This document shows positions 355 to 31,810 of a DNA stretch of 43,878 nt, in pieces. The stretch is from a virus, in IMG/VR virus record IMGVR_UViG_3300035156_000075, positions 1-43,878 of that record; one strand, 5' to 3'. Position 1 is the stretch's first letter, and every line of letters starts with the position of its first letter. The notes beneath the pieces were generated by a model. It had not been told where the DNA came from. It ran no database searches and worked only from the letters and a program-made list of their open reading frames with translations. The position numbers were made by a program, and so were the translations under genes.

Positions 355-531
355 TCCTAAATGCCCAACGACTAGAGCGAGAGCTCGTAGGACATAAGCC
401 AATGATGTCCGAAACGGTGGCTCCCCAAACAGGTCATGCTGTGGGGATTGATATAGTCTGATCTGCGTGGTGACACGCAGCAGTTCATAAGAGAACGGGT
501 GAGGCCTTGCGAGCCTCGTCGAACATAAATG
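355..531 (+). ncRNA. 3' half of a self-splicing group I intron (P7, P8, P9 elements)
   Basis: The R element is at 364-374 (CCCAACGACTA) and the S element at about 447-460 (ATTGATATAGTCTG). GACTA at 370-374 pairs with TAGTC at 454-458 as helix P7. Between them GGACAT (390-395) pairs with ATGTCC (405-410), fitting P8. After S, CTGCGTG (463-469) and CACGCAG (474-480) form a P9 hairpin with a GTGA loop. GAGGC (501-505) and GCCTC (513-517) form a further P9-type hairpin. The predicted intron ends with the terminal G at 531 (CATAAATG), after which the ATPase frame continues. P1 to P6 and the 5' splice site lie outside the window. The match to phage group I intron cores is by eye. Confidence 0.8.
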
Positions 532-2309: not shown

Positions 2310-3493
2310 GCGCTGTCGAAACCATCGACCGAACCAAAGACATCCAGTACCTCACCAGGGAACTGGATAAGATCAAGTCCATGGTGTTCATGGGCAAGAA
2401 CTCTGCTTTCTTTGGTTCACTCATGTGCTCTCTTGGCTTCGAATGGGTTACGAACATCCCCACCGCTGCCACTGACGGAACCAAGATCTACTGGAATCCT
2501 GAATACTTCCTCCGACTGCCCAAGGAATCCAGGCGTACCGATCTCATGCACGAGCTTGGGCATAACTCGGGGTTGCACTTCCTGCGTCAGGGAGACCGTG
2601 ACGCCAAGCTGTGGAACATAGCCACCGATATACGGATTGACCTGGATCTGGAAGCCGATGGCTACACGTTCGAGGGTATTGAAGGCGTCCTCACCTTCAA
2701 GGATCTCGATGCCCGCAAGTACGCGGGTACTTGGACCGATGCTCAGGGCAAGAGCCACATGTGGCTCGAGGAGGACATCTACGATGACCTCCTGAAGAGT
2801 CACTTCAAGCCTCCACCGAACTACCAACCCACCATGCAGCCTGGTGGACAGGGCAAGATCAACGCCAGCGTGAATACCCTACTCAAGGCCGTACACCAGG
2901 CCAAGATGCAGGGCGGTGACGCAGCTGGCATCGGCACGGGTAAGTATGAGCTTCTGATCAAGAAGTTCCTGGCTCCCGTGGTTCCGTGGGAGACGCTCCT
3001 GCATGTCTTCATGACGGAACTGATCGAAGAGGGCTATACCTGGACACGTCCTAATAGACGTTATCCGGATATGTACCTGCCCAGTCGCCATCGTGAGGCG
3101 GGCAAGTTAGACCATCTCATGTACTACCAGGATGTCTCTGGCTCGATCCTCGATGCGGATAATGTGCGGTTCAACTCGGAAATTGCTTTTGTTAAAAGTA
3201 AGTACAAACCGAAGAAGCTGACCCTAGTTCAGTTCGACGATGGTATCACAGACGAAGTGAGCTTCGACGAGAACGACCCATTCGATGAGATCAAGATCAT
3301 TGGACGGGGCGGTACGAATCTTGAGCCAGTGCGTCAGCATATCATTGATCATAAGCCCACGGCTGCGATCATATTCACGGATCTCGAGGTGACTCCTATG
3401 AAGCCGCTTCCTTTCGACATCCCGATCATCTGGATCACCATAAGGAATACCGGGGCAACTGTGCCGTTCGGTAAGATCATCCACATTCGATAA
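2306..3493 (+). CDS. Zincin-like/VWA-domain protein (N4 gp25-like partner of the MoxR ATPase)
   Basis: The 395-residue product combines two domains. Residues 20-230 resemble the putative metallopeptidase domain found with DUF2201 proteins and contain HELGHNSGLH (H82, E83, H86, H91), an intact zinc-protease motif. Residues 270-395 form a VWA-like domain with the metal-ion site DVSGS (D276, S278, S280), a GGTNL loop near 335 and an FTDLE strand near 357. MoxR ATPases and VWA proteins act as chaperone pairs that remodel or insert metal into protein complexes, and the N4 family carries such a pair among its core genes. Here the ATPase lies just upstream at 532-927. The target is unknown. The start is set by the ATGA overlap at 2306. 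Confidence 0.85.
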   Translation: MSAVETIDRTKDIQYLTRELDKIKSMVFMGKNSAFFGSLMCSLGFEWVTNIPTAATDGTKIYWNPEYFLRLPKESRRTDLMHELGHNSGLHFLRQGDRDAKLWNIATDIRIDLDLEADGYTFEGIEGVLTFKDLDARKYAGTWTDAQGKSHMWLEEDIYDDLLKSHFKPPPNYQPTMQPGGQGKINASVNTLLKAVHQAKMQGGDAAGIGTGKYELLIKKFLAPVVPWETLLHVFMTELIEEGYTWTRPNRRYPDMYLPSRHREAGKLDHLMYYQDVSGSILDADNVRFNSEIAFVKSKYKPKKLTLVQFDDGITDEVSFDENDPFDEIKIIGRGGTNLEPVRQHIIDHKPTAAIIFTDLEVTPMKPLPFDIPIIWITIRNTGATVPFGKIIHIR

Positions 3494-3501
3494 GAGGAAC
3501 C

Positions 3502-3774
3502 ATGACAGACAGTTCAATGATCGTCGTCGCCTGCACACACTGTCACTCTATGAATGTTCAGAAAGATGCCTTCGCGTCTTGGGACTTCGAGGGCCAAGAG
3601 TGGGTGTTGTGCTCGACCTTTGACGACAACACCTGCGGTGACTGCGGGGAGAGTACGCACGGGGAAGAGATCACTGTTCCCCATAAGCTCTGTGCTGAAG
3701 CCGACGAAGACGAGATTCAGGCCTACGTTCACTCCCTATACGAAACTACGTTCACCCCCAGTACCGAGAAGTAG
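3502..3774 (+). CDS. Small Cys-rich protein, probable zinc-ribbon (90 aa)
   Basis: ATG 3502 follows AGAGGAACC, eight bases after the VWA stop. Residues 10-50 carry two Cys pairs: CTHC near the N-terminus and CGDCGE about 35 residues later. This spacing fits a zinc ribbon. The remainder is acidic (EADEDEIQAYVHSLYE). Zinc ribbons of this kind bind nucleic acid or RNA polymerase, but nothing here shows the target. A second small Cys-rich ORF occurs downstream at 4653. Confidence 0.65.
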   Translation: MTDSSMIVVACTHCHSMNVQKDAFASWDFEGQEWVLCSTFDDNTCGDCGESTHGEEITVPHKLCAEADEDEIQAYVHSLYETTFTPSTEK

Positions 3775-3784
3775 GCAAATCCTG

Positions 3785-4663
3785 ATGGTCATCAACGGCA
3801 GTAAGCTGATCTTCAACGCCCCGATCAAGAACATGATCGGCACCAAGGTCTATGAGAACGGTGTGTCTCATGGCCTTGGTGAGGCGGGCTACGACATCCG
3901 CATCAAGGAGGACATCACCTTTAGTCGTGATCTGTTCCTCAAGCGGTGTGTTCAGCGCCTGGTTCTCGATAAGGACGGCGACATCCTAGAGCATCACATG
4001 GAGCCAGGTCGATTCGTCCTGGCTTCGGCTCTGGAAGAGTTCGCCATGCCCCTGAACATGATGGCCGAGATCAAGGACAAGTCCTCATGGGCTCGTCGCG
4101 GTCTTAGTGTCTATAACACCGTGATCGAGCCCGGATGGAGGGGCTGGTTGACCCTCGAGCTCGTCTATAACGGTCATCGGGATCTCCACATCCCAGCTGG
4201 TTCAGGCATAGCCCAGGTGGTCTTCAGCGAGGTAAGCAACCCCGCTCAGTACACTGGACGCTATCAGAACCAGGAGAGCCGACCGGTCCCAGCCATCACG
4301 TCCAAGGCTAAAGAGCAGCTCACTCTCGATGCCTTCGAGAGGGTGCATGTGTTCTCCAAGCTCCCTGACGAGACGGGTGGCTGCCCCTATTGCGACAAGG
4401 CCAAGGCCTGGCTCGTGGAGAAGGGCATCCCTCATACCGTCGAGGAGCTGGGTCCGATCCAGCGCCAGGCTCTCTATGACCAGTACGGCCTGGTCGATGG
4501 CAAGCGTACCGTTCCCCAGGCCGTCATCTATGACGGTGAGGGGGTCTCCCACCGAATCGGGGGGTACGCCGAGCTGGTGGTGTCCAGCGTGGAGAGCCTC
4601 TTCGGGCATGGCAATGATCGGGCCGATTCCAGTCAGTATTCTGGACAGCGTAATGCCCGGTGA
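3785..4663 (+). CDS. dCTP deaminase/dUTPase-family domain fused to glutaredoxin
   Basis: ATG 3785 is preferred over the longer frame from 3554, which overlaps the previous gene. Of 292 residues, 1-165 form a trimeric dUTPase/dCTP deaminase fold. SSWARRGL (100-107) matches the deaminase Ser-Ser-x-x-Arg nucleotide-binding motif. IEPGWRGWLTLEL (114-126) carries the Glu (E125) at the position of the dCTP deaminase catalytic Glu. This favours dCTP to dUTP conversion, feeding dTMP synthesis by the ThyX encoded downstream, but bifunctional or dUTPase activity cannot be excluded. Residues 186-275 are a glutaredoxin with a CPYC active site (200-203) and TVPQ (242-245) supplying the cis-proline. An extra loop (KLPDETGG) precedes CPYC. 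The glutaredoxin could reduce ribonucleotide reductase, which is not seen here. Confidence 0.85.
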   Translation: MVINGSKLIFNAPIKNMIGTKVYENGVSHGLGEAGYDIRIKEDITFSRDLFLKRCVQRLVLDKDGDILEHHMEPGRFVLASALEEFAMPLNMMAEIKDKSSWARRGLSVYNTVIEPGWRGWLTLELVYNGHRDLHIPAGSGIAQVVFSEVSNPAQYTGRYQNQESRPVPAITSKAKEQLTLDAFERVHVFSKLPDETGGCPYCDKAKAWLVEKGIPHTVEELGPIQRQALYDQYGLVDGKRTVPQAVIYDGEGVSHRIGGYAELVVSSVESLFGHGNDRADSSQYSGQRNAR

Positions 4664-20989: not shown

Positions 20990-23900
20990 TTAAAATACCG
21001 CTGCTGCGAAGGGGTTCAACCTCCACGCACCGAAAGCCATGCCCGGTCCCATCGAGTGACCCAGCGCACCATTGAATCCCTTGGTGAGCAGGTTGTCCTC
21101 GATGGGTGTGCCAACACCAACGGGCATCGGCATCAGACCCATGAGCATCGCATGGACCGGGTTCTCCCGGATCATGTTGGCGGCAATCTTCACCGAGCGG
21201 ATCTTGTAGTTGTAGAACCACAAGAGACCCAGGTTCTCCACGGCACCACGAGAGCGTCCCGGCAGTCGATCGTAGTTGACGAAGTTCTCCGTGACCTTGC
21301 CCAGTGTCTTCTCCTTCGAGAAGCCCTTGCGCTTGGTCAGGTGATCGTAGGTGATCGACTTGGCCAGGAAGTCTCCGTACTCAACGGCCTTCTGCAGCCC
21401 CTGGAACAGCGCCGTGTCCTTGGTGATCAAGGCATAGCGGCCCACCGTCTGCAGGGAACCAGGCAGCTTCTGAGCCAGGTTCTCCATGTAGGCGTGCAAG
21501 CGTCCCTCACTCAGCAGGATGTCCTCACGGGAAATGCCCGCATCCGAGATCGAGCTGAACTCACCATTCTCAATCAGCGGCCAGATCGAGAGACGGCGAT
21601 GACTGTCCTGGATCGTCTGGATCTCAGACTTGAGCTTGCGAGCCGTCACCACATCATCGATGGCTTCGGCCGCACTAAGTTCGGCTTCTGCCTCCACCTC
21701 ACGCAGACGACCGGCAGTGTAGCTGTTCACCTCGGCAATCTTCTTGGGCATGGCCCTCGTGATGTCGCCGATGGGAACGCCCTGGCTCAACATCTGAACC
21801 ACGTTCGAGACGAAGTTGGCGACAGGAACAACCACAGACTTCACCACAATGAGCAGGCGCGCATCCTTGACCGTGTTCTGGATCGTCTTCTCAGCAGTGA
21901 GCAACAACCGGTACGCATCATTACCGGCAAAGCTCAATGCCAGATTCTTCACTCCGTTCTGCAAGCCAGGAGGGAGCCTTGTGATACCCGTCCAAGCGTC
22001 GCCCACTGAGGCCGCACGGTATCCCAGCGCGTCGTTGAGCATGTCCCGACGCACATAGAACCCCTTCCCATCGAACTTCTCTTCCGCGTATTTCATCGTC
22101 TGCCTGGACATGAGAGCCACGGCATCCTTCAGCACTGGATCCTTATCGAGCGTGTCCTGATCCAGGAGATCCACATAGCGGGATTGGTTCGAGGAACTCT
22201 CGGCCATGTCCTTCTTGTACATCTTGCCCAGCTCGTCGATTAGCTGCTCGTTGTAAGCCTGAGCCATGCCCTCCTCTTCCTGACGACCACGCCACACACC
22301 CATCATCTTGGCCAGGTGAGAGTCATGCTCGAGACGCTCAAGCTGTGCCGGATCCAGGGAACGCTCGTAGGCGATGACCTTGCCTGCGACATTGAACCGG
22401 GGGATCAGGTTCTCCCTGGATCCCTTGGCCTCGGACCAAAGCGACTTGCTGATGTCCTCCACCAGCTTCGGATCGGTGATCCGGCCAGCGACCATATCCG
22501 AGGTAAAGCCGGTATTGGCTTCCACCCCAGAGGCAGTCTGATGGACGTTCTGGAAGATGCCCTGGTTAAAGCCAGCCCGTGCCGGGACGGAGGAGAAGTA
22601 GTAGGCCTGACGCGGACGACCGAGCTCTGCATTGGAGCCAGAGTAATCCCCCACCATCGTATAGCTCTTGGCCAAGAGCTCAGCATGGCGAGAGACATCC
22701 GCCACGATCAGGCTGGCACCCTCCTTGGCACTGCTCGGGATGTGCCCCTTGTAGTGGTTCAGGTCAGCCCGGCCAGACTCAACCTTCTTCATCTCAGTCT
22801 TGCGCTGGCTCATGAGCGTGGTGAGAGCGAACTCCACACCCTTGGCTTCGTCCTGAACCAAGGAAGCGAGACTGTCTTTGTCCTCCTGGCTCATACCCTC
22901 GAGCGCATAAAGCGTCGTTATATTGTCCACCGCATCAATGAGAGCTGGCGTCGGAGCCGGACGGTTCCTCGGCACACGCTCATTGAGCAACCGGGCCACA
23001 GCCCCGGCATTGCTGAGCAGGTTGGTCCCTGGCTCACCTGTGTTCATGTGATGCGCCAGCTGGCGAGCCTTGGCTTCGATGAGAGGGGCGAACCGCTTGT
23101 CCTCGTCACGGATGACGCTTTCCAGCCTGGCGATCTCAGCCTTGACGCTCTTGGGATCCCCAAGCAGCTTGAGGACATCGGCAACCTTGCGACCCTGAGC
23201 CAGCACAGCCAGGTCTGTCTTGGCCATGCCACGGAACAGGGTGCTCCACTCGTGCTCCGTGAGAGGACGGCTGAACCGGTTCTTGATGAATGTCGGTAGA
23301 TCCTCGCGGAACTGCTGGCGGACAGCCTGCACATAGGACCTGACCTTCTTGATCAGGTCATACACACCGGCATTGTCCGTGGTTCGACCCACCAGGTCAC
23401 CGACGAACTCCCGCATCGGAGCGAAGCGTTCGACGGTGTTCACCCCGGACATCACACCGGTAGAGACGTTCTCGGCTTCGTCCTCGTTGACGAGTGCTGC
23501 CATGACCTTGGTCGTCGCAGCCACACCACGATTGAGAAGCGTGGGCTTCTTGGTTCGGCGAGCTTCCGCCTTCTTCACCAAGGCACCGGCCAAGGCGTTC
23601 ATGCCCTTGATCACGGCGTCATTGGTGCCATCGACGATCCGGCCACCAGGACCAGAGAGCATCTCAATCGTACTCTTGCCGTCCTGGCTCACCGTCTGGA
23701 TGCGAGCCGAGAGCGCGTCCATGGCTTCCTGGATGTTGTCGCTCTTATTGATCCCACCCATGCGGCGAGAGAGCGAATCCATCATCAGGTTGCCCATGTT
23801 CTCGAGCTTGCTGTCGAGGGTGCTGCCATCCTGAAGCAGGATCTTGGGCACCTCGATCTTGGCCAGAGCCTGGCGCAGTGGATCATTGACCATGGCCAGA

Positions 23901-26900
23901 GCCAGGAACACCGGCAACAGGGATGAACGCTTGGACTGATCGGTCAGCGTGAGGCGGTTGCCCACCAGCACGTCATAACGGCGCTGGGCTGTGTTCTGGG
24001 CACGGCCCGGATCCACGTCATCCTCGTCCACCAGCATATCTGGCGTGAGGTTCTTCACCACATGGGTGTAGAGCGTCTGTGCCGTCGCCATGGCATTGGG
24101 ATCGATGGCGGCCTCGGTTGCCAGGACCGCAACCATCGTCTCAAAAATGGTACGCTCCTGGCCTGTCATGGAGAAGCCGTTATCGATCGCCGACTTGGCG
24201 AGCTGCTCGGCACCCTGCTGAGCCAGGTCATATCGATCAGCCCGATCGATGGTGCTCTTGGCGTCCGTCTTGGTCTCGAGGTGCGTGCTGATCTGTCGAT
24301 CGAACGTGCGCCCGATGTCCGCCAGTCGCTGGCTCTCACCATAGGCCGTACTCATGTAGAGCATGGTTTCTCTGGCTTGCTCCTGCAGGGTGGGCTGTGC
24401 CCGAACCAGGATGCTCGTGTTGAACAGGAGGTTCGAGAGCATGTCCTCCTCGGGCTTGGTGACACGAGCCCGGCCGAAGATGATGGTCTTGATGGCCTTG
24501 AACATGTCCTTGGCAAGCTGAACCAGGGGTGAAGCCTTCACCTGGCTCTGACCCTCGGAGAGCGTCTTATTGGCCAGGCCCCATGCCATAAACTCGTTCA
24601 GGGCTGCGGCGTCGTTCTTGGTGGCCTGGTGTCCCTGGATCGCGAACACTGCTTGCTTGTACGGGGTGCCCGTACCACCGAGGGCCAGGAACTGAGCCAT
24701 GAGAGCCTGCAGACGGGTCACCGCATCCACGACCTCGGGTGTGGTGTCCTTGCCTGCGAGAACAGCCTTCACCTTCTCGAAGGTCGAGGCGTGGATCAAC
24801 TCATGAACCAAGGTTTCCTTCGAGGGATTGACCAGGTAGATGATCTTCTCATCGATCGAGGTGAGACCCCGATCCCCGTCTTTGAAGACGGGAATGATCA
24901 GACCCTTTTTGTCGGCGTAATCCACCAACTGCTCAGCGGAACCATGGACAACAGTGTAGTCCTTGGCTGCCTTGGTACGGCGGATCTGGTCGAAGATCGC
25001 CTGCTGGGTGGCATTCAACCCGTAGTGCTTGACCAGCTTATTGACCGCAGTGGGCGAGAGGATGCGAACACCCGTTGCCTTGTGCAGCGTCCCGAAGGTG
25101 ACCGGCTTTTGGCTCTCCGGAGAGGGAGCCTGTGTAACCTGAGCAGGGGTTTCGGCTTTCACAGCAGGCTTAGTGATAGCCGGGGTACTCACAGTATCGG
25201 ACATCTCTGCCCGAACCTTGATCTCCTCCTCACGCAGCAGCTTGTTCAGGGAGTTGGAGATCTCCTCGTCGTTCATACCCTCGAGCTTGATGCCGGGGTG
25301 AGCATAGGGAGCCCCGGCTGCGGCCATCTGGTCGATGCTGTGGGACACCCGGTTCATCACGCGATGGCGGGCTTCGATAGAAATCGAGGAATCCTTCAGG
25401 GTTATCGGCAGCAGCTTCAGCTCGACTTCAACACCCTTCACAGTCTCAGGCGGTTCCTTATCACCGGGGCGTTTGATGGCACGCTTGAGGCTCTTGAACT
25501 CCTCCTCCGACAGCTTCGACACATCGAAGTTCGGAAGAGACGCCACATAAGCCTTCCGCACGGCCTCCATGGGGTTGCCCTGCCAGCTGTCGAAGATGGC
25601 TCGGTTGGCCTTGACCGAATCCTCCTTCAGCGTGGTGAGCTTGAAGTTCACACCGTCGTAGATGTAGAGCGCACCCTTGGGAGCGTTCTTTCCCGTGACC
25701 AGGCTCTGAATGGCCTGACCGTCACCGGTTCCGATGACCATGAAGGGAATGCCCGCCACTCGGGCATCCTTGGGTCCGAACACGAAGCCAGGGGTCTTGA
25801 AGGTACCAGTCAGAGACTTACCGTACTCAGAGTCATTGGAATCTGTGGACTGACTGCCTGCAGGGAAGAACACCTGGGTTCCAGTGGAGATCAACGGGAA
25901 CTTAGTGATAGTATCCTTCAGGATACTGTCCTGTTCCTTCTTGGTGAGCCCTTCACCACGCACACGGCGGATCTCTGCCATCTGAGTGAAGGTAAGTCCA
26001 AGTTCCTTCAGCTTGACGCCGAGTTCTTTGTTATCGAGCCCATCCAGAGCCAGAACGGAATAGACTTGATCCTTGGAGATCTTCATCTCCTTCAGTCGGG
26101 GATCTTCCGTCAGCTTGGAGTGAATCTTCTCAGAGATCGCTGAATTGAAAGAGTTCGCCTGGAAGATGGACTGAACTTGGGTTGCACGACGTAGAGTGAC
26201 AGTTGCGTCCACCAACTGCTGTCCAACCGTCTCAGTGATAGCCTGACGCAGCGGCATGATAAAGAGATGCAGGACATTGCTCTGCAGAGTCTTCAACTGC
26301 GCCGAAGTGAGCTTGAAATCCTCTGGATCAGAGAGTTTGAAGGGAACAGCCTTCTTCGTCTCCTTGGTATAGAGATTGCCGTCCTTGGATCGAAGCATCT
26401 CGAACTGAGTGAGAGTATTCATCCCAGTCTGGAACTGATCGAACAACTGCAGCGCAGACTTCGTATCAGTGGCCTTATCCCCGAAGAGAGCTTCCGCAAC
26501 ATTGGCAGCACGCCCATCGTCGAGCTTTGCCATGGAGGTAGAGATCCTCTCATAGAGTTCCTCCGTCATGGCGCCCATCACCTTAGCCGCAATGCCTGCT
26601 TCACCCGAACCATAGAGGGTGATGGTCAGGGGGTTCTTGGCGATGCCCCGCTTGAGGTTCAGCTGGTCCCTGCCATTGGCGTCCTGCGTGATGGAGAAGT
26701 CCGGCATCAGCAGGTGCATCACCTCGGACAGACGACGCATGTGCTCGGCTGCTTGGGGGGACATCTTCTCCCCACGCAGAGTACGCAGCGCATCGATCAG
26801 CTTGTCCGTCGTCGTCTGGTACATGTCCTTCTTGTCGCCACCATCCTTTTGGGTGTGGAGATCGTTCAGGGTCTTCGGTCCACCATTGTGCCCACGCAGG

Positions 26901-29900
26901 TTGAGCCCACCCTTGGCCATGCGGTTCACCCATTCCTTGGTGAACTCGCCCACGCTGAGCAGCATCATCGCGTTGATGGCACCGTTGGTGACGCCGTCGG
27001 CCTCGACATAGAGCGAGGTGGTGAAGGCGCTGGTGTCATCAGCAATGCGGTAGCGGGCGTACTCCATGAGGGCGTGCAGACCCAGTGAGGTCACTGGCTC
27101 ACCAATGGCCTTGAAGCTGTCCTGGAGGATTTGCACCTCGGCATCGGTCATGCGGCCAGTGGTCTGGAAATCCCGCATGACATCGACGGCGGCTTCCAGA
27201 TCACCCGAGAGCTTGCCCTCGATGTTGTCGATCGATGTCTGCAGGCTCTGCTTGTGGACCTTCTCGCCAAGACCCTGAGCCATGGCGAGCATGAACATCT
27301 TGTAGTGCTCGGTCTCACGCGAGCTCAGATCCAGGGTCGCACGAGTGGGCAGGATGGCCTCACGCACAGCCTTGGTGGACTGGGGGTTGTACCGACCCAG
27401 CATCATGAGACGACCCACGCGGGTCACGTTGTAGGCGTAGTGGATCGGCATCTGGTCGATGTCCACGCCAGCATCACCGGCCCGTGTCTCGAGCTCCTGA
27501 ACCATGCCCATGAGGTGATCGTAGCCGCCAGCGACAGTGCGGTTGATGCCCTCGAGTGTAGCCCGGTGGTTCACGTTCAGCTTGTGGAGAGGCTTGCCTG
27601 CCTTGTCACGGTTCGGGAGATCACCAGCACCCAGCAGCTTCAGGAAGTTATCCTTGCCGAGTGCCTTGTAGAACTCGAACTGCGGGACGTTCAGGTAGTG
27701 CTTCTCGTTCTGAGCACGCTTGATCATCTCACGCTGCTCAGGCGTGTTATCGACCAGGGCATTACGCAGCTGGCTCTTGGCCACACGAGGACGATCATCG
27801 CCGAAGTAGTTGACCTCTTCCGGCTCGATGAGAATCATCTTCTCAATACGAGACGGGTCCTTGTTCAGTGGATCGTTCTCATCGAACTCCCGCGTGGAGT
27901 TGTAGAGATTTACGTCTCGAACAATGAACTCAACACTGTCTTCGCCTTCGACGAAGTTGTCCTTCTGTTTGCTGAACTCAGCATGAACAGGCGTAACCTT
28001 GAGCTGCCCATTCTCCAAGAGTGCCTCAAGGACTTCGGCAGCAATGGCTTCGGGGATGCCCTCAGTGTATCCGACCTCGACATTTGCGTCCGCATCGAAG
28101 CCCCAGAACTGCCGAATCTTACGGGCCAAAGCACGCTTAGCTTGGATCGATGTGATACCAGACTTCATCTGGTTGACCATCTTATCCGTGATGTCGTCCA
28201 CATCCACACCGAAGAAGCTGGCGATGTCCTCGTCCGCCATAGGCGTGATGCTCTGATTGACCGTCAGAGCCCACTGCAGACCAGCCAGGATTGCGTTCTC
28301 AATCAGCTCCGGGTTGTAGGAGAGCTTACCGTCCTGGTTCTCGACGATGTTAAGAGCCTTGCCATCGAGCCAGCGGTTCACCTCCCGTCCATCGAGGAGA
28401 TCCTTGCCCAGACCGTTCTTGTCCATGGCAGCGTCCAGACGACCCTGCAGGATCTTGCCCAGACGATCACCGGTACGCAGCACGCTCTTATAAGCCTTGG
28501 CCACATCGCTATCGAGCGACACGTCAGAGGCATTGCCGGTGAAGGCAGCCATCGACGAGCCAGAGGAGAACGCAGCCTTCACTCGCTCAAGGGGAGACTC
28601 AATCCCCTGGGTCCGAGACTTCGGCTTCTCAGGCTTGGTAAAAGCCTTCTTGTAGAAGTTGGTGAGCTTGCTCCCGGTCTCGGATCCAATCAGCTTCGAG
28701 AAGGGCTCTTCCTTCTTGGGTGCTGTCTCTTCCGAAACCTTCGGAGCTCCATCGGAAACCTTCGGAGTTGTCTCTGAAACCTTCGGAGCTCCGGTCTTGG
28801 TCTCAACAGTCTTGGTGTCCGCAGCGGCTGTCGCCGGTTCCGCCGCCTTCGGCGTCACAACCGTCTCCGTCACCGCTGCTGGCTTGGGTGTCTCAGCCTT
28901 AGCCTCTACCTTCTTTGGCTCGGGCTTCGCCTCGCTCTTGGTTTCGGTCTTTGCCTCAACAGGAGCCTTGGTCTCAGTCTTGGTCTCAACCTTCGCTTCG
29001 GTCTGAACCACGGGAGCCGAACCAGAGACACGAGTACCGGACTTGAATCCCTCGGCCACTTCCTGTGCCGTGCCCTGCAGCAGGGGAGACATCTCAACAC
29101 GAGTGGCCTTGCCAGCATTCAGCTGGGGAAATGCCTGGCTCACATTGTTGTAGATGTCCGTGAGGCGCTGGCTCTCAAGCGTAGCGGTCTGAGCCAGCTT
29201 GATGGAGCCAGCAGCGTTGGCACTCTTGAGGTGGATGATCGGAGCCCTGGTGTCGTACCACTCACGCTTCTCTGGATCCAAGGCCCTGAACATCTGGGGC
29301 GCACCACCTTCATCAACCTGTTGGTTGATAGCCTTGGCCTTGTTCTGCATGTGACGAACGAACTTGCCGAACTCACGTAGCTGGGTGCTGGCACCATCCA
29401 CATTGCCCTGGCGCATCGAGTCCACGACGCTCTTGATATGAGCCATGGCCGATAGCTTGGGAGAGTTGGGATTGGTATCGAGTTGGATCTCCCGAGACAC
29501 GGCGGTCAAGGGTTTGTCGAATCCCAGGCCTGCGGCCTGGTCGTCTCCACCCTTGACCGCCTCGAGGATGGCCCGTGCCGCGAGAAGGGAGTTACGCTGA
29601 TCCGGCGTGAGCTCGAGCCTGCCACCATCGTTGTGGGCCAGGATCTGGTTCGTCACACCGAGGTCCATGCGCTCTGGCGCGTAGTGTGCGAGGAAGACAG
29701 CCTTCTTTACGTTGTCTTGCCCCTCTGGGGTGTTGAGCTTCTCCACCGGGATGGGTTGAACCATCTCGGTCTTGCCCGCTTCCTGCTGAGCGAACATCCG
29801 CTCGATATGTCGTTCTGCTTTCGCAATGGCTTCGACGATCGTGGGCGTGCTGGAAATATCCCGATTCAGTTCACGACGGCGCTGCATGAGGAGCATCGCC

Positions 29901-31810
29901 GGATCTTCAGCATCGAGGCTGCGAAGGATCTCGGGCGATTCCATCACGGCGTCAGTCAGCTTCTGCCGCATCTCCATCAGAGCCATGGCAGCGGGAAGAG
30001 CACGCTCACTGTCGGTGCTGGCCGCCTTGATCTCGGCAGCCAGGCGCTGCATGGCATCCAGACGATCAGTGGATCCAGTGAGGATGGGCTGCAGCGAAGA
30101 GGGCTGCTGGCTAACCTCCTCAGGGCTGAAGCTGGCAGCCTGCATGAGGTTGGATACATAGGTCTGTGCCTGGGTCCGCTGCTCGGGAGGAGCATCAGGG
30201 ACGGCCGCAATCGCGGTCTCGACAGCGGCCTGAACCACGGCTTCGGTTTGGGGTGCTTGGGTCTGCGCCTCGTCCAGTGAGGCCCTGACCGTGGCGTCAG
30301 CCACGGGCGAGGAAGCCTCGTTCTGGGCACGGAGGCGCTCTGCCCTCTCGGCCGCAACAGCATTGACAGCACTCACACCGGCAGCGGCAACGGTACCTGC
30401 AGCACCAGCAGCACGACCCGCCAGTGCAGGAGCCTGGATCGCACCAGCCCCGGCGAGACCACCAATGGCACCGGAGGCGATCTGCTCACCGACGCCCTGC
30501 GAGAGAGACCGATCACTGTCAGCGACACGCTGGATGGCGATGTTCTGAGCGACGGCGCCGGTACCACCCTGGATGGATTCCTCAGTCGCTTCCCGGATCA
30601 TGTTCTGTCCGGCTGCGCGGAGACTTCCAACGCTAAAAGGTGCGCCCTCGAAACGATCAACAAGACGACCCGCTGCCACGGCAAGCGGTGCCGTGATGGT
30701 GGCCGACATCATACCAGCTCGATTGGCTGCCCCAGTGCGCGCCTCTTCCTGGGTCATGCCCTGACCAAGCAGGCTGCGATAATAAGGAGACCGATCGTTG
30801 AGCTGATCGAAGGGCATTGCTGCCACTTCGGCAGCCGTACCGGTATAGGCGCCACTGCCTTCAGTCAGACCGATACCCAGTGCGGTGGCGCTCGGGAGGC
30901 TTTCACCAATCGTGGCCAGACCACGAGCTGCGGCACCACCGGCCAGGGATTCGGTGATGACACCGAGACCGCGACCGACACCGGCGATGGCCTTGCCCAC
31001 CGGACCAGCCGTGATGATGGAACCAACGGCAGAGGCTCCAAGATCACCCATCATCGCGGGATTGCTGACGATGTTAGAGCCCTGGTCTCGAAAATCCCGG
31101 CCAATGCGGCGAAGATCGGCAAGACCCGGAACCAGGGTCTGATTCTCCCGGTTGAATTCCTGAGTATTATCCCGCTCGGACATCTCGTTGGCAGCAGCGA
31201 GAGCCCGACGCTGGCCCTGCATACCGGGGCTTTGCATTCCCTGGATCGCGGTGCTTGCTTCCTGGATCGCCTGTGAGGCAGAGACGCCTGCATTGCTGTC
31301 GGCCAGACCGAGACCAATGGCTCCGATGTTGGCCAAGCCACTACCGACAGCCAGACCTACCCCAGTAGCCGCGTCACCGATGATCTGTGAACCAGTCCGC
31401 TCCTGAGTCGTATCGGCATCATAGTTCCGTTGACCAGCTGCATTGATCGACAGCAGGTGCATGGCCTGGCGCCGACCATACTTGGCGATCAGCTGTTCCG
31501 TGCGGAGAGTACTCAGATCCTCTTCAACCTGGGTTGTGCTGCGGGCACCGGCCCCAGTGTTACGACCCGCTGCGAAACGGTAGGCATCGGCTTCAGTGGG
31601 AAGGACACCGCCCAGATCGAGGTACTTGTTCGCGGAGGCGTTCGCAACCTGCTCTCGGATACGCTCCGAGGCCGTCATAGGTGTCGTGCGATTGGTAGAG
31701 GAGGGCGGAACTGCCTCATCAAGAACAGCGGGCGGCAGGACAGGAGCAGGTGCAACCGGAGCTGGGACTGCAGCAGCCTGAGCCAGCAGATCCGAGACAG
31801 ATCCCGACAT
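20990..31810 (-). CDS. Virion-encapsidated RNA polymerase, N4 vRNAP-like (3606 aa)
   Basis: The length and context match N4 vRNAP (about 3500 residues). T7-type RNA polymerase motifs are in the right order: T/DxxGR near R1473 (MMLGRYNPQST), motif A with D1605 (VEADGVTNGAINA), motif B with K1725 and Y1733 (AKNPLTITLYGSG), motif C with D2052 (LYIYDGVNF). The K-Y spacing of 8 matches N4. Residues about 930-1040 are a Lys/Glu/Thr-rich repeat linker that marks the front edge of the polymerase domain. The first 900 residues include Gly/Ala-rich, possibly membrane-active helices. Downstream of the polymerase domain, LVHELIHAS (H2336, E2337, H2340) forms an HExxH zincin motif. The protein would be injected to transcribe early genes. 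Start: ATG with AGGAAAT upstream. Confidence 0.92.
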   Translation of the reverse strand: MSGSVSDLLAQAAAVPAPVAPAPVLPPAVLDEAVPPSSTNRTTPMTASERIREQVANASANKYLDLGGVLPTEADAYRFAAGRNTGAGARSTTQVEEDLSTLRTEQLIAKYGRRQAMHLLSINAAGQRNYDADTTQERTGSQIIGDAATGVGLAVGSGLANIGAIGLGLADSNAGVSASQAIQEASTAIQGMQSPGMQGQRRALAAANEMSERDNTQEFNRENQTLVPGLADLRRIGRDFRDQGSNIVSNPAMMGDLGASAVGSIITAGPVGKAIAGVGRGLGVITESLAGGAAARGLATIGESLPSATALGIGLTEGSGAYTGTAAEVAAMPFDQLNDRSPYYRSLLGQGMTQEEARTGAANRAGMMSATITAPLAVAAGRLVDRFEGAPFSVGSLRAAGQNMIREATEESIQGGTGAVAQNIAIQRVADSDRSLSQGVGEQIASGAIGGLAGAGAIQAPALAGRAAGAAGTVAAAGVSAVNAVAAERAERLRAQNEASSPVADATVRASLDEAQTQAPQTEAVVQAAVETAIAAVPDAPPEQRTQAQTYVSNLMQAASFSPEEVSQQPSSLQPILTGSTDRLDAMQRLAAEIKAASTDSERALPAAMALMEMRQKLTDAVMESPEILRSLDAEDPAMLLMQRRRELNRDISSTPTIVEAIAKAERHIERMFAQQEAGKTEMVQPIPVEKLNTPEGQDNVKKAVFLAHYAPERMDLGVTNQILAHNDGGRLELTPDQRNSLLAARAILEAVKGGDDQAAGLGFDKPLTAVSREIQLDTNPNSPKLSAMAHIKSVVDSMRQGNVDGASTQLREFGKFVRHMQNKAKAINQQVDEGGAPQMFRALDPEKREWYDTRAPIIHLKSANAAGSIKLAQTATLESQRLTDIYNNVSQAFPQLNAGKATRVEMSPLLQGTAQEVAEGFKSGTRVSGSAPVVQTEAKVETKTETKAPVEAKTETKSEAKPEPKKVEAKAETPKPAAVTETVVTPKAAEPATAAADTKTVETKTGAPKVSETTPKVSDGAPKVSEETAPKKEEPFSKLIGSETGSKLTNFYKKAFTKPEKPKSRTQGIESPLERVKAAFSSGSSMAAFTGNASDVSLDSDVAKAYKSVLRTGDRLGKILQGRLDAAMDKNGLGKDLLDGREVNRWLDGKALNIVENQDGKLSYNPELIENAILAGLQWALTVNQSITPMADEDIASFFGVDVDDITDKMVNQMKSGITSIQAKRALARKIRQFWGFDADANVEVGYTEGIPEAIAAEVLEALLENGQLKVTPVHAEFSKQKDNFVEGEDSVEFIVRDVNLYNSTREFDENDPLNKDPSRIEKMILIEPEEVNYFGDDRPRVAKSQLRNALVDNTPEQREMIKRAQNEKHYLNVPQFEFYKALGKDNFLKLLGAGDLPNRDKAGKPLHKLNVNHRATLEGINRTVAGGYDHLMGMVQELETRAGDAGVDIDQMPIHYAYNVTRVGRLMMLGRYNPQSTKAVREAILPTRATLDLSSRETEHYKMFMLAMAQGLGEKVHKQSLQTSIDNIEGKLSGDLEAAVDVMRDFQTTGRMTDAEVQILQDSFKAIGEPVTSLGLHALMEYARYRIADDTSAFTTSLYVEADGVTNGAINAMMLLSVGEFTKEWVNRMAKGGLNLRGHNGGPKTLNDLHTQKDGGDKKDMYQTTTDKLIDALRTLRGEKMSPQAAEHMRRLSEVMHLLMPDFSITQDANGRDQLNLKRGIAKNPLTITLYGSGEAGIAAKVMGAMTEELYERISTSMAKLDDGRAANVAEALFGDKATDTKSALQLFDQFQTGMNTLTQFEMLRSKDGNLYTKETKKAVPFKLSDPEDFKLTSAQLKTLQSNVLHLFIMPLRQAITETVGQQLVDATVTLRRATQVQSIFQANSFNSAISEKIHSKLTEDPRLKEMKISKDQVYSVLALDGLDNKELGVKLKELGLTFTQMAEIRRVRGEGLTKKEQDSILKDTITKFPLISTGTQVFFPAGSQSTDSNDSEYGKSLTGTFKTPGFVFGPKDARVAGIPFMVIGTGDGQAIQSLVTGKNAPKGALYIYDGVNFKLTTLKEDSVKANRAIFDSWQGNPMEAVRKAYVASLPNFDVSKLSEEEFKSLKRAIKRPGDKEPPETVKGVEVELKLLPITLKDSSISIEARHRVMNRVSHSIDQMAAAGAPYAHPGIKLEGMNDEEISNSLNKLLREEEIKVRAEMSDTVSTPAITKPAVKAETPAQVTQAPSPESQKPVTFGTLHKATGVRILSPTAVNKLVKHYGLNATQQAIFDQIRRTKAAKDYTVVHGSAEQLVDYADKKGLIIPVFKDGDRGLTSIDEKIIYLVNPSKETLVHELIHASTFEKVKAVLAGKDTTPEVVDAVTRLQALMAQFLALGGTGTPYKQAVFAIQGHQATKNDAAALNEFMAWGLANKTLSEGQSQVKASPLVQLAKDMFKAIKTIIFGRARVTKPEEDMLSNLLFNTSILVRAQPTLQEQARETMLYMSTAYGESQRLADIGRTFDRQISTHLETKTDAKSTIDRADRYDLAQQGAEQLAKSAIDNGFSMTGQERTIFETMVAVLATEAAIDPNAMATAQTLYTHVVKNLTPDMLVDEDDVDPGRAQNTAQRRYDVLVGNRLTLTDQSKRSSLLPVFLALAMVNDPLRQALAKIEVPKILLQDGSTLDSKLENMGNLMMDSLSRRMGGINKSDNIQEAMDALSARIQTVSQDGKSTIEMLSGPGGRIVDGTNDAVIKGMNALAGALVKKAEARRTKKPTLLNRGVAATTKVMAALVNEDEAENVSTGVMSGVNTVERFAPMREFVGDLVGRTTDNAGVYDLIKKVRSYVQAVRQQFREDLPTFIKNRFSRPLTEHEWSTLFRGMAKTDLAVLAQGRKVADVLKLLGDPKSVKAEIARLESVIRDEDKRFAPLIEAKARQLAHHMNTGEPGTNLLSNAGAVARLLNERVPRNRPAPTPALIDAVDNITTLYALEGMSQEDKDSLASLVQDEAKGVEFALTTLMSQRKTEMKKVESGRADLNHYKGHIPSSAKEGASLIVADVSRHAELLAKSYTMVGDYSGSNAELGRPRQAYYFSSVPARAGFNQGIFQNVHQTASGVEANTGFTSDMVAGRITDPKLVEDISKSLWSEAKGSRENLIPRFNVAGKVIAYERSLDPAQLERLEHDSHLAKMMGVWRGRQEEEGMAQAYNEQLIDELGKMYKKDMAESSSNQSRYVDLLDQDTLDKDPVLKDAVALMSRQTMKYAEEKFDGKGFYVRRDMLNDALGYRAASVGDAWTGITRLPPGLQNGVKNLALSFAGNDAYRLLLTAEKTIQNTVKDARLLIVVKSVVVPVANFVSNVVQMLSQGVPIGDITRAMPKKIAEVNSYTAGRLREVEAEAELSAAEAIDDVVTARKLKSEIQTIQDSHRRLSIWPLIENGEFSSISDAGISREDILLSEGRLHAYMENLAQKLPGSLQTVGRYALITKDTALFQGLQKAVEYGDFLAKSITYDHLTKRKGFSKEKTLGKVTENFVNYDRLPGRSRGAVENLGLLWFYNYKIRSVKIAANMIRENPVHAMLMGLMPMPVGVGTPIEDNLLTKGFNGALGHSMGPGMAFGAWRLNPFAAAVF
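28731..28792 (-). repeat. Short tandem repeats in the vRNAP linker
   Basis: The plus strand reads GAAACCTTCGGAG three times at about 20-25 base intervals, coding three APKVS/TPKVS-type repeats in the linker before the polymerase domain. It lies in a wider low-complexity stretch (about 28690-29010) of Lys, Glu, Thr, Ala and Pro. Such sequence can expand or contract by slippage and probably acts as a flexible tether. Confidence 0.6.

Follow-up and report, generated by a model that had tools for sequence, protein, structure and literature searches.

The 3' part of a T4-like group I intron in the gp24 ATPase gene of an N4-like phage and its relatives at other gp24 positions

The window, which is the whole stretch of DNA that was analysed, is a 43,878-base virus contig. 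Its N4-type core genes identified it as an N4-like phage (Schitoviridae). Gene families found included DNA polymerase, exonuclease, SSB, portal, major head protein, and the gp24/gp25 pair, while a 3606-aa ORF (20990-31810) overlapped a region with DNA similarity to the gene annotated in RiverRider as virion RNA polymerase, a very large protein of the N4 type. The left end of the contig falls within an HNH_3 ORF, leaving the 5' half of the intron (the 5' splice site, the 5' strands of P1-P6, and the N-terminal half of the endonuclease) and the 5' exon of gp24 off the contig. The features from this end are as follows.

1-354, + strand: C-terminal 117 codons of an HNH homing endonuclease ORF, with stop TAG at 352-354 and its 5' part off the contig
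355-366, + strand: stretch linking the ORF stop to the R element, UCCUAAAUGCCC, conserved in all relatives
367-374, + strand: R element AACGACUA, with GACUA (370-374) as the 5' strand of P7
375-386, + strand: P7.1 hairpin GAGC-GAGA-GCUC, also a hairpin in relatives, with different bases
390-410, + strand: P7.2 hairpin GGACAU...AUGUCC, from alignment and fold
416-421, + strand: 3' strand of P3, GGUGGC, with its partner strand off the contig
422-447, + strand: P8 hairpin UCCCC...GGGGA with an inner ACAG/CUGU stem, from covariation
450-458, + strand: S element GAUAUAGUC, with UAGUC (454-458) as the 3' strand of P7
463-480, + strand: P9 hairpin CUGCGUG-GUGA-CACGCAG, from covariation
483-496, + strand: P9.1 hairpin GUUC...GAAC, part of the covariation set
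501-517, + strand: P9.2 hairpin GAGGC...GCCUC, from covariation
531, + strand: terminal guanosine, the last intron base (3' splice site), aligned with the final G of all relatives
532-927, + strand: 3' exon of an N4 gp24-type AAA+ (MoxR-like) ATPase, beginning TWEFMNK, with its stop at 925-927 (264 phage records)
2306-3493, + strand: partner gene, an N4 gp25-type DUF2201 metallopeptidase/VWA protein (PF13203, PF09967)

In phrog_1314 and many RefSeq phage entries, the gp25-type protein is called 'HNH endonuclease', apparently a misannotation that has spread. Downstream, the product of ORF 3554-4663 (+ strand) combines a dCTP deaminase/dUTPase-like domain at residues 105-226 with a glutaredoxin domain at residues 265-329, and no phage record covered 80% of it. 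The fusion looks unusual, and a sequencing or frame error is possible.

The original prediction proposed that a group I intron splits a MoxR-like ATPase, and the exon agrees with a split gene. Residues 1-130 encoded by 532-924 matched only the C-terminal part of the phrog_1297 ATPase profile (positions 218-355 of 356; E 2.5e-26). As the match starts at 218, the first 217 profile positions lie off the contig, and the window lacks a 5' exon of gp24, its left end lying within the HNH ORF. Intact phages read CPRTWEF across this region, and an alignment of ten ATPases showed no variation at Pro, Arg, Thr, or Trp. No solved structure matched gp24 significantly as far as the insertion site; the Arg there might at most be guessed to act as 'sensor 2'. 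The last three intron bases (529-531) read ATG and keep the frame of the 3' exon, creating an ORF at 529-927 that gene callers may report as a false stand-alone 132-aa ATPase gene.

An HNH ORF had also been predicted upstream of the intron core. Indeed, ORF 1-354 matched PF13392 (HNH_3; E 4.5e-9), and its product shared 69-78% amino acid identity with the full-length NUMOD4/HNH_3 ORFs of Gamaleyavirus NAN33P5 (OZ035750) and UViG 3300035312_000394. Both relatives contain an N-terminal NUMOD4, a region which is off the contig in the window. The closest family members share the C-terminus AAKAVDxxLDSIGDTxRxRNFP. The ORF is probably located in the P6 loop, and the segment at 355-366 would, by position, comprise the 3' strand of P6 and J6/7.

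T4-like IA introns follow the order P7, P7.1, P7.2, P3', P8, P7', P9, P9.1, P9.2, and G. Subgroup IA is defined by P7.1/P7.2 between P7 and P3 and by P9.1/P9.2 after P9. Both helix pairs are present in the window, together with the group I core (P7 R/S, P8, and the 3' strand of P3), a terminal G, and an in-frame join. The predicted R/S pairing as P7 was recovered between GACUA (370-374) and UAGUC (454-458), and the hairpins anticipated as P8- and P9-type correspond to 422-447 and 463-480, with P9.1 and P9.2 in addition. The 3' end was likewise correctly placed at G531, with the TWEFMNK frame (ACA TGG GAG TTC ATG AAC AAG) restarting at 532. The window carries one additional base before the final G (AAATG vs AAG-G in most relatives).

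Helix assignment was supported by an alignment of eight 3' halves, in which 94.8% of cells were paired and two-sided changes occurred in 25 of 41 pairs. These included P8 (95.8% of cells paired; changes in 5 of 9 pairs), P9 (100%; 4 of 7), and P9.2 (7 of 7). The P3 strands also covary in the eight relatives (e.g. GCUGCC/GGUAGC, GUUACC/GGUAAC, and AUCGCC/GGCGAU). None of 500 shuffles reached any covariation measure, and sliding the partner registers lowered pairing to 33-45%. A covariance model (R1) was built from seven relatives with the window left out. Within the 43.9-kb window, it produced a single match at 367-530 (142 bits, E 7.1e-41), and it produced none in two intron-less Schitoviridae. 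The held-out match and core covariation uphold a group I intron at 355-531.

A hit to the Rfam group I model (RF00028) covering 355-531 had been proposed as a check. A match was found, but it spanned 302-480 and scored 21.7 bits, below the gathering score of 50; RF00028 was accordingly absent from the window listing at that threshold. The E-value was 4.8e-5 for the whole record and 0.0055 when positions 1-1200 were compared to all of Rfam. We attribute the low score to the ORF held within the intron and to the missing 5' half, as annotated full-length sister introns scored alike (Pylas, 22.0 bits; pYD6-A, 23.4 bits). Several full-length sisters also fell under the gathering score, which is a detection threshold and not a biological feature. 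Because the Rfam match covers 302-480 and lies under the curated cut-off, more weight falls on the purpose-built model. The pYD6-A record (NC_020849, a 77-kb genome) contained six RF00028 matches, three of them above the cut-off.

Two full-length introns were found at the same position as that of the window. In UViG 3300035312_000394 (locus L278), the upstream exon ends TTC TGT TGC CCC CGT and the next begins ACA TGG GAG TTC ATG, flanking an 877-nt intron (2511-3387) with a 188-aa NUMOD4/HNH_3 ORF. In NAN33P5 (locus L013), the exon ends TGT CCT CGT and the next begins ACT TGG GAC; this second gp24 intron is 865 nt long (2560-3424). Both have an in-frame CCPR^TW junction at the same codon boundary as the window, whose DNA is 72-74% identical to the two introns (79-82% over the 3' half). 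They share with it the Pro-Arg^Thr-Trp point and an endonuclease clade (100/99 support). Unlike the window, they possess the 5' half, and their host phages differ clearly from that of the window, with ATPase 3' exons only 29-30% (NAN33P5) and 52% (UViG 3300035312_000394) identical.

Uninterrupted CPRTW sites gave 54 pattern matches in IMG/VR, nearly all of those checked being gp24. Taken with the shared boundary in two relatives, this bears out the suggestion that the insertion lies in a conserved PRTW-type segment, a likely homing site. Within one genus, the joined flanks of NAN33P5 matched the intron-less site of PW8 at 109 of 119 bases and that of pSb-1 at 110 of 120. Near-identical phages with an empty site are the picture expected of a mobile intron. 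In IMG/VR, one same-site intron was found through the junction pattern and alignment to the HNH C-terminus. Searches there with the C-terminal exon or the partial HNH retrieved no same-site intron. A general HNH alignment returned generic HNH proteins, with no same-site intron among the matches listed; nor was there one among the matches listed for an 18-base P9.1 motif, with no gp24 among the loci checked. A scan of genome contigs yielded a single weak match, an HNH fragment from an Actinobacteria MAG with no gp24 match adjoining it.

The endonuclease was better conserved than the genes around it. Between the window and NAN33P5, protein identity was 69% for the HNH fragment, compared to 59% for DNA polymerase, 52% for exonuclease, 51% for helicase, 48% for gp25, and 29% for the ATPase 3' exon. 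As a dispensable endonuclease exceeded the surrounding replication genes in conservation, these values suggest horizontal transfer of the element between phages.

Our data indicate that the first 531 bases are almost certainly the 3' part of a mobile, T4-like IA group I intron which carries a NUMOD4/HNH_3 endonuclease and interrupts N4-like gp24 at Pro-Arg^Thr-Trp. Such an intron explains the truncated look of the ATPase gene in this contig. Splicing, cleavage, and homing would proceed as follows. The 5' exon, ending in ...CCN-CGU in the transcript, would base-pair with a GCG guide within the 5' half of the intron, and a P7-bound guanosine would cleave the 5' site. The freed 5' exon could then attack after G531, producing an in-frame ...CPR-TWEFMNK... 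join. Cleavage of intron-less gp24 alleles by the endonuclease, close to the conserved site, would allow the intron to be copied into the cut allele during mixed infection. This model presumes that the off-contig 5' half of the window resembles that of its relatives. In eight of these, the 5' exon ends in U and forms a U-G pair with the internal guide (P1). Guide triplets matched the respective exon ends (CGU with GCG, CCU with GGG, GCU with GGC, and GAU with GUC). For relatives at the Pro-Arg^Thr-Trp point, guide pairing was short (3-4 bp) and P10 weak.

A free-standing HNH gene inserted in or next to gp24 would give two separately translated pieces, with the folds as remnants and no splicing. 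The ATG at 529-531 could start such a C-terminal piece, and the Pollock and PW8 records annotate gp24 pieces as separate genes. We nevertheless regard this as highly improbable: compensatory changes preserve every core helix, exon joins are in frame in 8 of 8 full-length relatives across four sites, guide triplet and exon end are complementary at every one of these sites, and the Pylas and pYD6-A records annotate gp24 as joined (spliced) genes. Equally hard to credit is a decaying, splicing-defective copy, perhaps in a dead phage or a mis-assembled contig. The break inside the intron and the extra base before the last G would fit decay. Against it, the 3' helices are all intact, the C-terminal part of the HNH is open and conserved, and the 3' exon reads open as far as its stop and is followed by core phage genes. 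Chance folding into T4-like motifs, to which the sub-threshold Rfam score and a single-sequence folding z-score of -2.0 might point, was rejected as having a negligible probability given the covariation and held-out match, and is also contradicted by the in-frame junctions and the DNA identity to two same-boundary introns.

Having placed the intron of the window, we considered its relatives elsewhere. A search with the endonuclease C-terminus recovered 17 phage records (those read being Schitoviridae) and seven IMG/VR loci, and every mapped ORF of the HNH lineage lies in gp24. As far as found, the lineage appears confined to Schitoviridae gp24 introns, with four clear insertion points by sequence comparison. 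Listed here are the insertion points, with positions counted along the Ebordelon ATPase, and further introns of the gene.

66/67 (D^F): ZC03 and ZC08, with phi 1 and locus L284 near there
119/120 (AAA^YK): Pylas, Pollock, pVco-5, 12VC501, and UViG 3300020462_000003
215/216 (Pro^Arg): pYD6-A
216/217 (Pro-Arg^Thr-Trp): the window, NAN33P5, and UViG 3300035312_000394
More distant HNH introns: near 67 in pSb-1 and PW8, and within the Walker B motif of NAN33P5 at about 105/106
37/38 (Walker A motif): a further intron of Pollock

Introns cluster in N4-like gp24, a hot spot with insertions at about codons 37, 66/67, 105, 119, 215, and 216 (loci L013-L017 and L278-L288). Several of the introns lie in or beside the Walker A, Walker B, and PRTW motifs, and NAN33P5 and Pollock have two each.

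In the endonuclease tree, the 216/217 set grouped with 100/99 support and was joined by pYD6-A at 96/96. The 119/120 set grouped with 99/97 support, and the 66/67 set was not one clade. The tree largely follows insertion point. That of the ribozyme 3' halves, which are too short to show whether intron and endonuclease moved jointly, was poorly resolved. We tentatively propose, at somewhat less than even probability, that Schitoviridae gp24 has a private intron lineage, in which one NUMOD4/HNH family moved among Asp^Phe, Ala^Tyr, Pro^Arg, and Pro-Arg^Thr with the guide changing to match. On another reading, endonuclease genes were exchanged between introns already in place. A private lineage, if true, would provide a natural series for studying target-site change in group I introns.

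The splitting of gp24 by HNH elements, and introns of this kind, are already known. The 2013 description of JA1 and VCO139 reported HNH genes splitting gp24, DNA polymerase, and gp43, and suggested introns (PMC3670811). In 2017, the description of ZC03 and ZC08 placed an HNH element in this ATPase and took these to be the only genomes of the set with such an element (PMC5418858). A group I intron has also been described in the thymidylate synthase of an N4-like phage (PMC5746245). Our search of the open-licence literature yielded no account of the Pro-Arg^Thr-Trp point or of the multi-site lineage.

Considered alone, the window adds another example to the known phage group I introns at conserved codons; the wider series is more interesting. 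Its relatives form a compact set of introns in the same gene at different sites, with near-identical empty sites, in which a joint shift of guide sequence and endonuclease specificity is directly testable. The pYD6-A gp24 intron (locus L015, 2256-3121, joined CDS) resembles that of the window in having a related HNH and core and in interrupting the same conserved motif. In contrast, it lies exactly one codon upstream of the NAN33P5 and window point, and its guide GGG matches its own CCU. The introns of Pylas, Pollock, pVco-5, 12VC501, and ZC03/ZC08 share the gene, the intron kind, and an HNH with the DTxRxRN-type C-terminus, but occupy different gp24 insertion points. Outside gp24, the nrdB intron of the T4-like Escherichia phage F1 was 83% identical over window positions 444-528 (from the 3' strand of P8 to near the end) and was also matched by model R1. 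T4-like phage introns such as nrdB differ from that of the window in host gene, insertion site, and intron ORF.
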